In this document: one piece after another, positions 53,678 through 60,649 of the stretch
How positions within the stretch are numbered: the first letter of the stretch is position 1
How the letters are laid out: every line of letters begins with the position of its first letter
Source of the DNA: Wohlfahrtiimonas chitiniclastica DSM 18708
Lineage (GTDB): Bacteria; Pseudomonadota; Gammaproteobacteria; Cardiobacteriales; Wohlfahrtiimonadaceae
DNA length: 64,000 nucleotides
Assembly (NCBI RefSeq): GCF_000375345.1
Contig: NZ_AQXD01000005.1
Span: 1-64,000 of the forward strand
Reading direction: 5' to 3'
The notes under the pieces: generated by a model
The model's input: the letters and a program-made list of their open reading frames with translations, nothing else
Database searches by the model: none
What the model was told of the DNA's origin: nothing
Made by a program: the position numbers and the translations under genes

Positions 53678-54049
53678 ATGGCGGATAATTTTAAGATTAT
53701 GGTGGTCGATGACAGTAGCACTGTGCGTAAAACGGCAGAGTTGATTTTAAGCAAAGAGGGCTTTGAAGTCATCTCTGAAGTCGATGGCTTCAGTGCATTG
53801 TCAGGATTAGAAGAGGCACGTCCTAATTTGATTTTTATGGATGTGATGATGCCGAATCTCGATGGCTATGACACTTGCCAAATCATTAAAGGTTCGCCTT
53901 CTGAGATCTCTAAAACCCCTGTCATTATGCTCACGAGTAAAGATGGTGCATTTGATAAGGCGCGTGGGCAATTAGCGGGCTGTGATGCGTTCATTACAAA
54001 ACCCTTTACCCGTGATGATTTAATTAAAGTGATAGAAAAATATAAATAA
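53678..54049 (+). CDS. PilG/PilH-type single-domain response regulator
   Basis: A 123-residue receiver without output domain. Acidic pocket Asp11-Asp12 (VVDDSS), phosphoacceptor Asp55 (LIFMDVMMPNLDG), Thr86 and Lys108 are all in place, and TPVIMLTSKDGAFDKARGQLAGCDAFITKPF resembles PilG/PilH. It leads a set with a PilJ-like receptor and a ChpA-like Hpt protein. In Pil-Chp systems such regulators are phosphorylated by ChpA and control twitching motility or cAMP. Confidence 0.88.
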   Translation: MADNFKIMVVDDSSTVRKTAELILSKEGFEVISEVDGFSALSGLEEARPNLIFMDVMMPNLDGYDTCQIIKGSPSEISKTPVIMLTSKDGAFDKARGQLAGCDAFITKPFTRDDLIKVIEKYK

Positions 54050-54059
54050 TTAAAGGATC

Positions 54060-55583
54060 ATGACTGTGAGTGAAGTGATGGCGGATGTGAGCGCGGCAAA
54101 GACGATCACCACCACACCATATGAGAAACAGCGCAAGCAATTGACCATTGCATTTTTCATTTGCGGCCTCTTTTTGGTGGGTTTGATTGTGTTTGCTTTT
54201 ATGCGGTTACCAAAATATGAGAGCAACCAAGATGTGGCGCATTTATCCACCGTGTATGATGCCGTACGGGACATTGATCATTATATTGATATCCAAGCCC
54301 AAGGTGGGCACATTGAGGAAGCGTTTTTAAAAGCGCGCATGCAAACCATCTCAGAAAATCTGCAAAAGGTTGAAGGGATTGATGCCAACAATGTGCTGAA
54401 CATTTGGCAAAACTTTCAGCAGCAATTGGCAGAACAAAACAATGCGTTAAACGTTGTCAATAATGCCATTCGCTTAAAGCAGCGGGCGGATGCGGCCAGT
54501 CAATCCTTATATCAAGATTTAAGTGGCGTATCGAGTCAGCTGTCTGATGCGCGCTCCGTGAGTTTAGAAACCATTCGCTACATTGATCAATTGGCCAATG
54601 CGGTGGTGCGTTTACATGCGAATTTAACGCGCGTCATCAATAGCCAAGCGAAAGTGGACATTCAAACCATCTCAGAATTGACAGACAGCTTATCTGTGGT
54701 GCAAAAGGGCTTAAATGTCTTGATGATGGGCTCACCACAAGAGGGCGTACAAAGCATTCGCGGCTCGTTAGAAGAAGAGAGCATTTTAGAGGCGCAATTT
54801 GTGTTCAATCAATTGGCACGCGATGTGTCCAGCCTCATTAAAGATGCCAGAGGCTTAGTGCTCCTCAATCAAATGCGCACCAAATTACAAGATGAAAAAG
54901 ACACCATTCAGCGCCTATTGCAAACCACGATCGACACCGCTTATGAAGGTCAGCAAGCCTACATTCAATCGATGAATCAATATGTGCGTTTAATTTCACT
55001 GATTGTTGCCGGTGGGATTGTGCTCTTTTTCTTGATTTTTGCTTTCTTATTCTTGCGCTTAAATCGTGCGCGCTTATCCATTTTGTTTGAAAAAGATGTG
55101 AAAGATCAGCGCATTGTGCAGGTGATGGCGGTGGTCGATCACTTTGTGACATTGCGTGAGCGCTTGATGACGCAGTTAGATTTAGTCGCTTCATTGAACA
55201 ATGAGAGTGATCGCATTTTAGCGAAAGGGCGCGAGGTGCGAGAGTCTTCACACAGCATCAGCGACATCATCAAAGAGATGCAAAACACTTATGATTATCT
55301 TGAACAAGCCTTTTCCCACGATTTGTCCCTCGTGAAAAAAGGTGGTGATGAGCACTTAGAGACACTACGTTCAACCTTAAAAAAACAGCTCGCGTATTTT
55401 ACGGAGCGTAAAGATAAAATTGCGGATGTCAAACAGACCGCATGGATGATAGAAGCGTTCTTCTCAAGCGTTGTGAGCAATACCAATGATTCTGTGGTGG
55501 CGTATCGCGAAGTGGAACAAGAATTGATGTTGATCATATCTGAGATTGATCAGTTAAATAGAGGATTGAAGGAAGAGGCATGA
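54060..55583 (+). CDS. PilJ-like two-TM receptor without MCP signalling domain
   Basis: A 507-residue membrane protein. TM1 spans about residues 28-48, a helical periplasmic part follows with repeated NxxALN- and SLSVV-type helices as in PilJ, and TM2 is at about 310-333. The cytoplasmic part (334-507) is helical and charged but lacks the conserved MCP hairpin tip, so it should not engage CheW/CheA normally. ATG 54060 has AAAGGA. It starts 10 bp after the regulator and overlaps the next gene by 4 bp. It may be a degenerate or specialised PilJ. Confidence 0.72.
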   Translation: MTVSEVMADVSAAKTITTTPYEKQRKQLTIAFFICGLFLVGLIVFAFMRLPKYESNQDVAHLSTVYDAVRDIDHYIDIQAQGGHIEEAFLKARMQTISENLQKVEGIDANNVLNIWQNFQQQLAEQNNALNVVNNAIRLKQRADAASQSLYQDLSGVSSQLSDARSVSLETIRYIDQLANAVVRLHANLTRVINSQAKVDIQTISELTDSLSVVQKGLNVLMMGSPQEGVQSIRGSLEEESILEAQFVFNQLARDVSSLIKDARGLVLLNQMRTKLQDEKDTIQRLLQTTIDTAYEGQQAYIQSMNQYVRLISLIVAGGIVLFFLIFAFLFLRLNRARLSILFEKDVKDQRIVQVMAVVDHFVTLRERLMTQLDLVASLNNESDRILAKGREVRESSHSISDIIKEMQNTYDYLEQAFSHDLSLVKKGGDEHLETLRSTLKKQLAYFTERKDKIADVKQTAWMIEAFFSSVVSNTNDSVVAYREVEQELMLIISEIDQLNRGLKEEA

Positions 55584-57358
55584 CACAGACCATTGAACTA
55601 ACTGATGCAGACGTTGTGGATGAATTAAAAGTTGCCGCTGAGTTATTGCGTGACACCCTTGAAACATTATTAGAAGATTCTGAGGATGAAGCGGAAGAAA
55701 AAGCCACGATTGCCAGTGCATTAGAAGAGATCGCCGGGATATTTACCGTATTGTCTTGGAATCATGCCGCGCAATACACCACGCAAGCGGGTAAACATGT
55801 GGCAGCATTGTCTGCCTTTGGGGAAGGGGATGCAGAAGATTTTGTGCTCCGTTACTGTTTGTTGTTAGAGCAGAGCATTGATATTTTCACAGACCTTGGG
55901 CGCATGCAAGAAAGTGATGTGGTGGAAGGCTTTGATGCGGGTGCAGAGGCTAATGAAGAGCTCAATTTAACCCTCATTAAAATGCTGCGTACATTGTATC
56001 AAAAGCAATTATTGCAGCTCATTCGCACAAATTCGATGGAAGGCCCTTTGAATGCTTTAAATGCGTTGAGTCGTGACATTTCTGCCTCATTGCCTGAAGT
56101 CAATGGCCGTGATTGGTCGCTTCTGTCTTTTTATTTACAAGCACTGTTGAATCACGAGCGCCCGTTGAGTGTAGAAACGCACCGTTTATTGGCGCAATTA
56201 GATGGACGCTTGGCGCAATTGCTCGATCATCAAGCCATTGAGCCAGATGTGAGTGAAGCGTTATTGTCCACAGTACGCACGCTGACAGAAGGTGAAAACT
56301 TCATTGAAAAGAGTATTTTAGTACAAAATGTCTACAGCATTTCACCAGCGGTTTATAAGCGTTTTGGGCAAGCCTTGAAAGATGATTTGATCAAAATTCA
56401 TGAGCAATTAGAGCGTGTTTATTTAGATCAAGCGCAGCGCATACGCTTAGAAGAATTCATGCCATTTTTGCATAAACTCATTAAAGTACTGGATTTTATG
56501 GGTTTAAAGCGCCTATCTGTATTGACGACAGATTTGGTTAATGCCATGGAGCGCCTCATCGCTGAACCGATGGAAAGCAATGAATTTAACGAGCTTGTGA
56601 GCCAATATTGGGTGCTTGAAAGCTATTTAGCAGACCTTTGGGGCACACGTGAGCAACCGGTGCCATTATCATACAATGAAACGCAAAATTGGGCATACAT
56701 CAATGCAAAACATCGAGCCTTGAAGTTATTTGTGGCACAATATGGTCAATTGCGTGATGCGATTGCGAAAAGTAAAGATGCGGCGAAATTGGCCGAGTTT
56801 CAAAAAGTGCTTTATGATTTGGTCAAAGCCGAAGGCATGCTTTCGATTGTGCACAGTTTAACGCGTTATTTTAACGATGATTTTATGCTCCGTCAGTTGT
56901 CACAAGAGGCGCTCGGTGAAGTGGCACTTGCGGTTGAATACATCAGCAACATGCATTTAGAGAATCGTGAAGTCTCTGCGCAAGTGATTGAAGGGGCAAA
57001 AGGCCATTTACAGCGTCATCAAGCATTGACACGTGCTTTGAACCAATATTCTGATGTGGATGTTGAGATGATCATGGCGTGCAAAGAGGATTTTGATGCT
57101 TTGGTGTCAGAATTCAGTGAGGCCATTGATGTGATGCCGATGGATGCGCGCAATTATGAAGGCCTCATTCGCATTGCACATACTTTACGTGGTAATGCAG
57201 CCTTGATGAAGCTGACAGAGGCTGAACATGCTGCCGCGGCGTTAGAGCGAGCGATGACGCGCAGCAGTGCGAGTGATGCCGCAGCCATCTGTGAATATCG
57301 CTTACAGTTTTTACACATTATTGAGTTGTTCAATCAATTTTTACAGCCATATCAATAG
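55580..57358 (+). CDS. ChpA-like Hpt protein without kinase core
   Basis: A 592-residue helical protein. Near the C-terminus IRIAHTLRGNAALMKL carries a histidine-phosphotransfer motif (His about 534; HTLxGNA). The earlier part resembles the repeated Hpt/pseudo-Hpt helices of ChpA, but there is no CheA dimerisation, HATP or CheW-like domain: the protein ends at about 60 residues after the Hpt. It can receive or pass phosphate but not make it. It is coupled to the PilJ-like gene by ATGA and lies 8 bp before mlaF. A distant kinase would be needed. Confidence 0.72.
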   Translation: MTQTIELTDADVVDELKVAAELLRDTLETLLEDSEDEAEEKATIASALEEIAGIFTVLSWNHAAQYTTQAGKHVAALSAFGEGDAEDFVLRYCLLLEQSIDIFTDLGRMQESDVVEGFDAGAEANEELNLTLIKMLRTLYQKQLLQLIRTNSMEGPLNALNALSRDISASLPEVNGRDWSLLSFYLQALLNHERPLSVETHRLLAQLDGRLAQLLDHQAIEPDVSEALLSTVRTLTEGENFIEKSILVQNVYSISPAVYKRFGQALKDDLIKIHEQLERVYLDQAQRIRLEEFMPFLHKLIKVLDFMGLKRLSVLTTDLVNAMERLIAEPMESNEFNELVSQYWVLESYLADLWGTREQPVPLSYNETQNWAYINAKHRALKLFVAQYGQLRDAIAKSKDAAKLAEFQKVLYDLVKAEGMLSIVHSLTRYFNDDFMLRQLSQEALGEVALAVEYISNMHLENREVSAQVIEGAKGHLQRHQALTRALNQYSDVDVEMIMACKEDFDALVSEFSEAIDVMPMDARNYEGLIRIAHTLRGNAALMKLTEAEHAAAALERAMTRSSASDAAAICEYRLQFLHIIELFNQFLQPYQ

Positions 57359-57366
57359 GAGTTGCC

Positions 57367-58158
57367 ATGCCTGAGATGATCAAGTTACAAGATGTGTCCC
57401 TCTCCTTTGGGAAACGTGTCATTTTTGATGGCATGACGCTTTCGATCCCGAAAGGAAAGATCACAGCCGTGATGGGTCCATCAGGCACGGGGAAAACCAC
57501 GCTGCTTAAATTGATGACCAAACAAGTGGTGCCACAATCGGGCACCATTATGGCGATGGGCAAAGATTTGTCCACGTTGTCGCGCTCAGAGCTGTATGAA
57601 ATGCGTAAACAGATGGGATTATTGTTCCAAAGTGGCGCGCTGTTTACAGACATGACGGTGTATGACAATGTTGCCTTTGCCTTAAGAGAGCACACCAAAC
57701 TCTCTGAAGAACTCATTAACACATTGGTGTTATTAAAATTAGAAGCGGTGGGGCTTCGCGCATTGAAGGATGCAAAGCCCTCATCATTATCCGGTGGACA
57801 AGCGCGCCGTGTGGCATTAGCGCGTGCGATTGCGTTAGATCCACAATTGTTACTTTATGATGAGCCTTTTACTGGGCAAGATCCCATTTCGATGGGGGTT
57901 TTGATGCGTTTGATCAAAGATCTCAATGACGCCCTTGATTTAACGAGCATCATTGTTTCCCATGATGTCGATGAAGTGCTCAGCATTGCCGATTATGTCT
58001 ACATCATCAGTGGTGGGCATGTGATTGCGCATGGCACAGCCGATGAAATTCGCTCTGATGAGAATGTGCAGGTGCGTCAATTCATCGATGGTTTAGCTGA
58101 TGGCCCGATGCCATTTAATCTGCCCACTGTACCGTTGAAGGATGAGTTATTGTCATGA
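57367..58158 (+). CDS. mlaF: MlaF-type phospholipid transport ATPase
   Basis: A 263-residue ABC ATPase: GPSGTGKTT, QSGALFTDMTVYDNVAF as in MlaF, signature SLSGGQARRVALARA, Walker B LLLYDEPFTGQDPIS and SHDVDE. The C-terminal tail VRQFIDGLADGPMPFNLP is the MlaF-specific extension that binds MlaB and the neighbouring subunit. AGGAG precedes the ATG. Confidence 0.93.
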   Translation: MPEMIKLQDVSLSFGKRVIFDGMTLSIPKGKITAVMGPSGTGKTTLLKLMTKQVVPQSGTIMAMGKDLSTLSRSELYEMRKQMGLLFQSGALFTDMTVYDNVAFALREHTKLSEELINTLVLLKLEAVGLRALKDAKPSSLSGGQARRVALARAIALDPQLLLYDEPFTGQDPISMGVLMRLIKDLNDALDLTSIIVSHDVDEVLSIADYVYIISGGHVIAHGTADEIRSDENVQVRQFIDGLADGPMPFNLPTVPLKDELLS

Positions 58159-58931
58159 AATTGATTGAAACGATCGGGCAAAAGACCATTGATTGCGTCA
58201 ATGCCCTTGGGGAAAGCGTGGTGTTTTTCTTTGCTGTGATGCGCCACAGCGGTTATCTATTCCAAAAACCAGGATTATTTGCGCGCCAAGTGTATCAATT
58301 GGGCATCTTGTCGTTGCCCATTATTTTATTGAGCGGCATGTTCATTGGCATGGTGCTTGCGTTTCAAGGCTATGTCAATTTAGTGCGCTTTGGGGCAGAG
58401 GCGTCTGTGGGCACTGTCACAGCATTGGCGCTCTTTCGTGAGTTGGCCTCTGTATTTACAGCACTGCTTTATACGGGGCGCGCGTGTTCATCACTCACTG
58501 CCGAAATTGGTTTGATGCGTGCCACAGAGCAGTGGTCAAGCTATGAGATGATGGCAGTGGACCCTTATCGCTATATTTTATTACCCCGCTTAATGGCGGG
58601 CATCATTGTGGTGCCGATTTTAACGATTTTCTTTTCAGATGTGGGCATTTTAGGCAGTTACTACATTGCCGTTGAGGTCTTAGGGCTCGATGGCGGTGGT
58701 TACTGGTCACAAATGCAGTCATCTGTCATCTTTTATGATGATATTTTCAACGGTGTCATCATTAAAAGTGTTGTGTTTGGCTTAATTTGTAACTTAGTGG
58801 CACTGCGTGAAGGTTTGCGCGGACATGCCACATCAAGTGGTGTGGCCAACTCAACAACAGCGACGGTGGTCAAAGCATCATTGCTCGTATTAGCGGCAGA
58901 CTTTATTTTGACAGCACTTTTGTTCAGATGA
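58155..58931 (+). CDS. mlaE: MlaE-type permease
   Basis: A 258-residue membrane permease. SGMFIGMVLAFQGYVNLVRFGAEASVG, LFRELASVFTALLYTGRACSSLTAEIGLMRATEQ and the C-terminal VFGLICNLVALREGLRGHATSSGVANSTTATVV are MlaE signatures. It overlaps mlaF by 4 bp. The next Mla genes (mlaD, mlaC, mlaB) are not here. Confidence 0.93.
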   Translation: MKLIETIGQKTIDCVNALGESVVFFFAVMRHSGYLFQKPGLFARQVYQLGILSLPIILLSGMFIGMVLAFQGYVNLVRFGAEASVGTVTALALFRELASVFTALLYTGRACSSLTAEIGLMRATEQWSSYEMMAVDPYRYILLPRLMAGIIVVPILTIFFSDVGILGSYYIAVEVLGLDGGGYWSQMQSSVIFYDDIFNGVIIKSVVFGLICNLVALREGLRGHATSSGVANSTTATVVKASLLVLAADFILTALLFR

Positions 58932-58987: not shown

Positions 58988-60649
58988 ATGAAGATGATCA
59001 AAAGCATGTGGGCATCCGCCTTTTTGCTGATGGCGCTTCTCTGTTCGCTCGCCGCTGCGAATGTGGACAAAGATGATGCCGCAACAGAAGATATTTTCTT
59101 GTATAAAGCCATTCCGGGCGACAGCCTATGGAACATTGCCCAGCGCCATCTGCACAGCATTAAACTCTGGACAGAACTTAAAAAAATCAACCATTTAACC
59201 AATGATGACTACATTGAACCGGGAACGCTCATTAAAGTGCCGCGCGCTTGGTTGAAAACGAATCAATCAACAGCCACGCTCGTCAATGCGATTGGCAGTG
59301 TCACCATCATCAATGACAATGAGCAAACATTGCAATATGGCCAAGATTTTACAGATAAAGACAGCCTAATTTTAACCACAGGCGATAAGATCATCACAGG
59401 TGATGATGGATTGGCCACCATTTTATTTAAGGATGGTTCGCGCCTATTGCTGCAAAGCAATAGTGAATTGGTGTTGAAAGATTTGATCGCCTTAGGCGAT
59501 GGTTCATTGAGTGACATTAAATTAGAGCTGGAAAAAGGGCGTTTAGAGAATCGCGTTTATTCCAGCCCAATTTCTAACACCAACTATGAAGTGAAAACAG
59601 CCTCTGCCATGACATCTGTACGCGGCACAGTGTTTCGCATGGGATTAGAAAAAGATGACAACAGCGTGACGGAAGTGGTGACCGGTAAAGTTGTGGCAAA
59701 AAGTGCCGAAGAGGCAGCACAAGGCGCTGAACTCACAGCCGGTGAAGCCATCATCATCACAAAAGAGGGCGATGCCAAGAAAGTTGTGATGTTGCCGCCG
59801 CCTGAGTTTAAATCATTCCCACAATTGATTGAAGCTGTGCCGATTCGCATTGATGTGCCAAAGGCTGACAATGTCATGGGTTATGCCACAAAAGTGGTGC
59901 CTGTTGGGGAAGATGAGCAAGATGCTGTGTCAAGCTTGCGCTCACAAGGTGATGTGCTGTTAGGCGGTGATCTGCCCGATGGCCGTTATCGCATGATCGT
60001 CAGTGCCATTGATGACAATGGCGTCACAGGGCAGCCTGCGAGCTATGAATTCATTTTAAATGCGCGTCCATTTGCTCCAAATCTCACAACGCCTGATAAT
60101 CATGCCAAAGCGTTATTGAAAGATTTAACCTTTGCATGGCAAAAAGTGAACGATGAAGCAAAAACATATTATCTACAAGTGGCGCGTGATGCGGATTTCC
60201 GTGAAGTCATCATTGATGCAGACAATTTAAGTGCGCCTGAATATCAGCCTAAGGATTTATTATCAGGCGTTTATTATTGGCGTGTGGCATCGATTGCGGA
60301 CAATGGCAAACGTGGTCCATTTTCAAGTGTGATGGATACACGCGTGTTGCTTGAAGATCCGAATTTAGATCGTGCCCATGTGAAAACAGCGAATGTGATG
60401 CTTGAATGGGCGCCATTAGAGCAGGGCACACAATATTTGATTCAAGTGTCCAATGATCCAAGCTTTAAGCAAGTGTTACTTGAGCACTCATTGCCAGAAA
60501 CAGAGCTCTTTATTGAGGATCTCGTGCCGGGGACTTATTATTTTCGCATTCAATCCACAGCATTTGATGGTTATGTGAGTGAATGGGGTTTGCCGCAATC
60601 TTTTGAGGTGTTAAATATCCCAAGCATTTCCGCAAAGCTGACGCCATAA
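58988..60649 (+). CDS. LysM-FecR envelope protein with Fn3-like repeats
   Basis: A 553-residue protein with a signal peptide (MWASAFLLMALLCSLAAA). A LysM domain (IPGDSLWNIAQRHLHSIKLWTELKKINHL, about residues 38-80) binds peptidoglycan. FecR-like region about 95-270 (GDKIITGDDGLATILFKDGSRLLLQSNS, VKTASAMTSVRGTVFRM) resembles the FecR domain of proteins that lack the sigma-signalling partner. Two or three Fn3/Ig-like repeats follow with YYWRVASIADNGKRGPFS type strands. There is no TM segment, so it is periplasmic. It lies 56 bp after mlaE. Its role is not known. Confidence 0.82.
   Translation: MKMIKSMWASAFLLMALLCSLAAANVDKDDAATEDIFLYKAIPGDSLWNIAQRHLHSIKLWTELKKINHLTNDDYIEPGTLIKVPRAWLKTNQSTATLVNAIGSVTIINDNEQTLQYGQDFTDKDSLILTTGDKIITGDDGLATILFKDGSRLLLQSNSELVLKDLIALGDGSLSDIKLELEKGRLENRVYSSPISNTNYEVKTASAMTSVRGTVFRMGLEKDDNSVTEVVTGKVVAKSAEEAAQGAELTAGEAIIITKEGDAKKVVMLPPPEFKSFPQLIEAVPIRIDVPKADNVMGYATKVVPVGEDEQDAVSSLRSQGDVLLGGDLPDGRYRMIVSAIDDNGVTGQPASYEFILNARPFAPNLTTPDNHAKALLKDLTFAWQKVNDEAKTYYLQVARDADFREVIIDADNLSAPEYQPKDLLSGVYYWRVASIADNGKRGPFSSVMDTRVLLEDPNLDRAHVKTANVMLEWAPLEQGTQYLIQVSNDPSFKQVLLEHSLPETELFIEDLVPGTYYFRIQSTAFDGYVSEWGLPQSFEVLNIPSISAKLTP

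Follow-up and report, generated by a model that had tools for sequence, protein, structure and literature searches.

The three-gene cassette found at positions 53678-57358 of the window (the whole stretch of 64,000 nucleotides of Wohlfahrtiimonas chitiniclastica DSM 18708 that was analyzed) is probably one part of a Pil-Chp system divided between two loci, and not a system without a kinase. The genes for a PilG regulator, a PilJ-derived receptor and a 592-aa protein form an operon-like run (Table 1), with a gap of 10 bp between pilG and the receptor gene (54050-54059), an overlap of 4 bp between the receptor and 592-aa genes (55580-55583) and the start of mlaF 8 bp past the stop of the latter. 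This packing, with mlaFE at once behind, had been described in the original prediction, together with a PilG-type receiver with all of its catalytic residues, a PilJ-like protein with two transmembrane (TM) segments and no MCP tip, and a ChpA-like Hpt protein without the CheA core. All of these features were recovered in the present analysis, as was the claim that the operon encodes parts for input, relay and output but neither a kinase nor PilH or PilI. No kinase domain or MCP tip was detected with Pfam in the three proteins, and no ORF for a CheW-like PilI was present within 53678-57358.

Table 1. Position and content of the cassette genes, their downstream neighbors and the ChpA kinase encoded at the second locus.
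Feature	Position	Strand	Description
pilG, single-domain response regulator	53678..54049	+	canonical PilG clade, D55 acceptor
PilJ-derived membrane protein (receptor)	54060..55583	+	PilJ-type periplasmic domain, two TM segments; without MCP signaling domain or Pfam HAMP match
592-aa protein	55580..57358	+	ChpA N-terminal (FimL-like) region and one Hpt domain, His534
mlaF and mlaE	57367..58931	+	directly downstream, constant neighbors
ChpA kinase	C2:9608-14494		1628 aa; three Hpt domains, HATPase, CheW, receiver

All three genes were intact in the six Wohlfahrtiimonas genomes searched, that of the window included; W. populi, W. larvae and strain G9077 were among those compared. Across the genus, the identity was 86-98% for PilG, 58-96% for the receptor and 49-98% for the 592-aa protein, and the dN/dS values (0.013-0.017 for pilG, 0.04-0.12 for the other two genes) point to strong purifying selection, that is, to genes that are maintained. 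A related, larger cassette was detected in another genus of the family (genome G007), where a PilG of 124 aa, a receptor of 588 aa and an Hpt protein of 919 aa are again followed by mlaFE. When homologues beyond the family were sought with each species represented by one genome, a method that is best at reaching close relatives, only Wohlfahrtiimonas was found. Additionally, in the comparison with strain G9077 (G002), the identity falls to 85-91% across pilG and the receptor gene (53750-55500), most of the flanks being at 94-100%. The dS between both strains was 0.43-0.61 in these two genes and 0.11-0.13 in darP, the 592-aa gene and mlaF, a pattern that suggests recombination of this segment.

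The regulator of the cassette matched the Pfam Response_reg domain (E 1.1e-25) and has all of the catalytic residues (D11/D12, D55, T86, and K108). It was placed by the tree in the PilG clade with a support of 100/99, and it is 50-57% identical to the canonical PilG of other Gammaproteobacteria. The regulator encoded at the second locus of the same genome (C2, see below) fell into this clade of the tree as well, with a long branch. Its assignment as PilH was rejected on account of this position, and it is a divergent, poor PilG, the canonical PilG being that of the cassette. No PilH-clade gene was found in either of the two Wohlfahrtiimonas operons, cassette or C2. A PilH-clade gene is retained in the genome G006 beside its C2-type locus.

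The receptor has its TM segments at residues 30-48 and 314-332. Pfam detected neither an MCP nor a HAMP match in it, and only a short remnant aligns with the PilJ-type HAMP. A HAMP motif of the PilJ type (ILRLVDEVALLAKGDLSAEMTVTHDSTGVIADSINVAVEELRMIVG) is present in the receptor of the G007 cassette, and the tail behind it is not of the MCP type. When compared by hhalign with 20 PilJ proteins, the G007 protein alone gave 99.3%, the family 97.2% and the Wohlfahrtiimonas proteins alone 82.9%, with a reversed control of 1.5%. A direct sequence search of the PDB returned nothing useful. The AF2 model of the receptor (pLDDT 70.7, pTM 0.40) matched best the periplasmic part of P. aeruginosa PilJ, in the structures 7zjr (Z 17.9, rmsd 5.6, 249 residues) and 8wdf (Z 17.8, rmsd 5.3, 242 residues). 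The ligand-binding domain of McpS came next (Z 17.4) and is tied with the PilJ structures under the fold-search program's own rule; therefore, the fold match supports PilJ only jointly with the sequence profile. Because of the HAMP motif of G007, the profile match and the fold match to the PilJ crystal structures, the receptor can be regarded as the sensory half of PilJ, its signaling half being gone. In the model, the tail forms an extended antiparallel hairpin (349-427 and 430-506), which might be a residual MCP hairpin, but it did not match the PilJ profile and has no detectable similarity to MCPs. The signaling half of the receptor was apparently lost stepwise, since the sister genus retains a HAMP of which Wohlfahrtiimonas shows at most a short remnant, and the sensor domain has been kept under selection.

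In the 592-aa protein, Pfam detected an Hpt domain at residues 497-572 (E 1.3e-7), but no HATPase, CheW or dimerization domain, and His534 was invariant across seven genomes. Residues 11-478 aligned by hhalign with the N-terminal region of ChpA with a probability of 92-93%, and residues 11-566 aligned with the ChpA columns 30-769 at 96.7% (reversed control 0.2%), an extent that covers the FimL-like region and, behind it, an Hpt domain. The values against FimL (21.7%) and against the ChpA N-terminus (92%) differ, a gap that may only reflect alignment depth, as two FimL sequences were aligned. Only weak Hpt matches were obtained by direct sequence search of the PDB. The AF2 model (pLDDT 73, pTM 0.30) contains two CheA P1 folds: the one at 122-237 (CheA3 P1, Z 15.8, rmsd 2.3, 116 residues) has no conserved His, and the one at 490-589 (T. 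maritima CheA P1, Z 14.1, rmsd 2.3, 98 residues) carries the invariant His534.

The original prediction had also stated that the phosphate source was missing. This is true of the operon and not of the cell, and a genome without a kinase was thus rejected, since a full ChpA kinase is encoded at the second locus (C2:8473-16884), together with the PilG-clade regulator, PilI/CheW, an MCP-type PilJ, PilZ and TatD. The His, N-box, G1 and G2 motifs of this ChpA are intact, and the PilJ of this locus is the sole MCPsignal match of the genome. The search that had been proposed for a kinase, pilI and pilH elsewhere in the genome therefore located the first two at C2. This chp locus (L009 8473-16884) continues straight into pilZ and tatD, an order kept across the family. 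In the genus g4 of the same family, the ChpA core was found in none of nine genomes (G008 and G010-G017), and those also searched for PilG were without it too, so that Pil-Chp seems to have been lost altogether there.

The contents of the two loci are largely complementary in Wohlfahrtiimonas. The FimL-like region is absent from the C2-type ChpA family (0.1%), whose alignment with canonical ChpA does not begin before column 696, and the residues between the TM segments number about 86 in the C2 PilJ and about 265 in the cassette receptor. A system divided between the two loci is thus favored because the cassette supplies the FimL-like region that the C2 ChpA lacks, because the C2 PilJ loop is short in this genus and the canonical PilG is held in the cassette, because the kinase, PilI and MCP-type PilJ are all at C2, and because PilB/PilT-type ATPases are encoded and the cassette is under purifying selection. 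In the genomes G006 and G007, the periplasmic part of the C2-type PilJ is still larger (TM segments at 16-34 and 267-285 in G007); therefore, it is in Wohlfahrtiimonas that the split goes furthest.

On the basis of the anatomy and ancestry of the cassette, the selection acting on it, the kinase in trans and the pilus motor ATPases found in the genome, the following working is proposed, in which phosphotransfer, PilG binding, localization and the effect on pili are inferred. The C2 locus carries the catalytic array, composed of the MCP-type PilJ, PilI and the ChpA kinase. Encoded at the window locus are the canonical PilG, the membrane protein that represents the PilJ sensory half, and the FimL-like ChpA N-terminal part with its single Hpt domain. 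ChpA made from C2 would autophosphorylate and would then phosphorylate PilG in trans, directly or via the Hpt domain of the 592-aa protein. This protein, like FimL and the ChpA N-terminus, may bind PilG and keep it at the pilus sites, and the PilJ-derived protein would act as membrane anchor and periplasmic input. Phosphorylated PilG would promote pilus extension. In P. aeruginosa, PilG is held at the pole jointly by FimL and ChpA, and ChpA phosphorylates PilG (PMC10519157); in A. baylyi, fimL, located away from the main operon, is required with pilG for pilus placement and pilJ is not required (PMC9596432). A cAMP output via a CyaB-type class III cyclase was rejected, as none was found in the genome. 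The motor ATPases being present and this cyclase not found, the output is therefore more likely the pilus motor than cAMP. More tentatively, a single Pil-Chp pathway might be wired via two separate membrane complexes, the sensing and positioning complex of the window and the kinase array of C2, in such a way that a receptor without the CheA/CheW contact surface senses via the PilJ periplasmic domain and controls PilG via the FimL-like Hpt protein; this arrangement is possible, and we would not call it probable.

Several observations stand against the divided system. The loci are not strictly complementary in G007, given the larger periplasmic part of its C2-type PilJ, the receptor tail is without MCP similarity, the C2 ChpA already has a partner in its own PilG-clade regulator, and the constant neighbor of the cassette is mlaFE and no pilus gene. 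The last two, the latter holding in both genera, would also fit a separate branch, in which the cassette, as a second, reduced paralogue of the Pil-Chp operon, would function independently of C2, with its Hpt protein fed by another kinase or by none and with a PilG whose target is not the pilus and is perhaps, in view of the adjoining mlaFE, the envelope; other histidine kinases are indeed encoded in the genome. We consider this rather unlikely, as the cassette PilG is the one that has stayed close to canonical PilG, the C2 regulator having diverged, and the region missing from the C2-type ChpA is exactly what the cassette supplies.

The original prediction had offered two guesses, a borrowed relay and a phosphate sink, of which the borrowed relay is the better and the sink found no positive support. 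As a phosphate sink or buffer, the cassette would use its Hpt protein and PilG to drain phosphate from the C2 ChpA for a faster termination of the signal, and it would be a brake and not an output. The conservation of His534 and D55 and the lack of a PilH-clade gene in both operons would suit this role, for which a PilJ-type sensor and a FimL-like region would be needless; P. aeruginosa PilH is itself no sink (PMC10519157), and we hold a brake to be improbable. Least credible of all, to the point of being nearly discounted, is a decaying remnant or an assembly artefact of an ordinary pil-chp operon. The truncation with respect to canonical chpA and pilJ and the gene order pilG-pilJ-chpA, which is that of the parent operon, would agree with it, but the genes are intact in six genomes at dN/dS of 0.013-0.12 and occur in a second genus. 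A frameshift splitting a normal chpA, which the original prediction had named as a possible refutation, or an assembly error was rejected on the same grounds.

The cassette shares with the Pil-Chp systems of Pseudomonas and Acinetobacter (Tfp class) the PilG-type output regulator, the PilJ-type periplasmic sensor, the ChpA-type N-terminus with Hpt, and the gene order pilG-pilJ-chpA. It differs from them in that its operon lacks pilH, pilI, the MCP signaling domain and the kinase core, all of which except pilH are at the second locus. FimL binds PilG and the polar hub FimV. Like FimL of P. aeruginosa and A. baylyi, the 592-aa protein is related to the ChpA N-terminus and has a gene of its own, apart from that of the kinase and beside, or working with, PilG (PMC3019171, PMC9596432). 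The homology of P. aeruginosa FimL to ChpA spans residues 1-563 of the latter, and its acceptor sites are occupied by Gln (PMC3019171). The 592-aa protein differs in having an extra C-terminal Hpt with an invariant His. The FimL-like part of ChpA is also a gene of its own (524-605 aa) in the divided chpA operons L148, L150 and L155 of other Gammaproteobacteria, but there it is adjacent to the kinase gene in one operon with pilG, pilI and pilJ. L155 (4578-11014) is another reduced or divided Pil-Chp, its single operon comprising pilG, pilI, the gene of a very short PilJ of 323 aa, the FimL-like gene of 524 aa and that of a ChpA of 923 aa. Hpt domains split from the kinase core are functional in CheA3/CheA4 of Cereibacter sphaeroides, where the Hpt-bearing protein is likewise apart from the core (PMC10782961); the genes of those two proteins lie in a single operon, and CheA3 includes a CheW domain, which the 592-aa protein lacks.

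Moreover, mlaFE was found behind the cassette in the same order in the six Wohlfahrtiimonas genomes and in G007. The gaps are of 8-10 bp, and a consensus scan detected no strong terminator between the genes and several weak terminator-like patterns on the + strand inside coding sequences. Co-transcription of the cassette with mlaFE is likely. Beyond constant adjacency, no support for a functional link between them was obtained. In the window, mlaFE is followed by a gene for a LysM-FecR protein with Ig-like matches (58988-60649) instead of mlaDCB. This gene is broken into two ORFs in the genome G005 (L054 6310-7965), by an assembly error or as a pseudogene.

The cassette is therefore real and conserved, and it is a variant of the known Pil-Chp system, not a new kind of system. 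The kinase function in P. aeruginosa is not easily separated by genetics from the ChpA N-terminus, FimL and the PilJ sensor. In Wohlfahrtiimonas, sensing and PilG handling would have been parted from the kinase array by evolution with both kept, and this genus may thus offer a natural test of the roles that PilJ sensing and the FimL-like region have when contact with a kinase is lacking.
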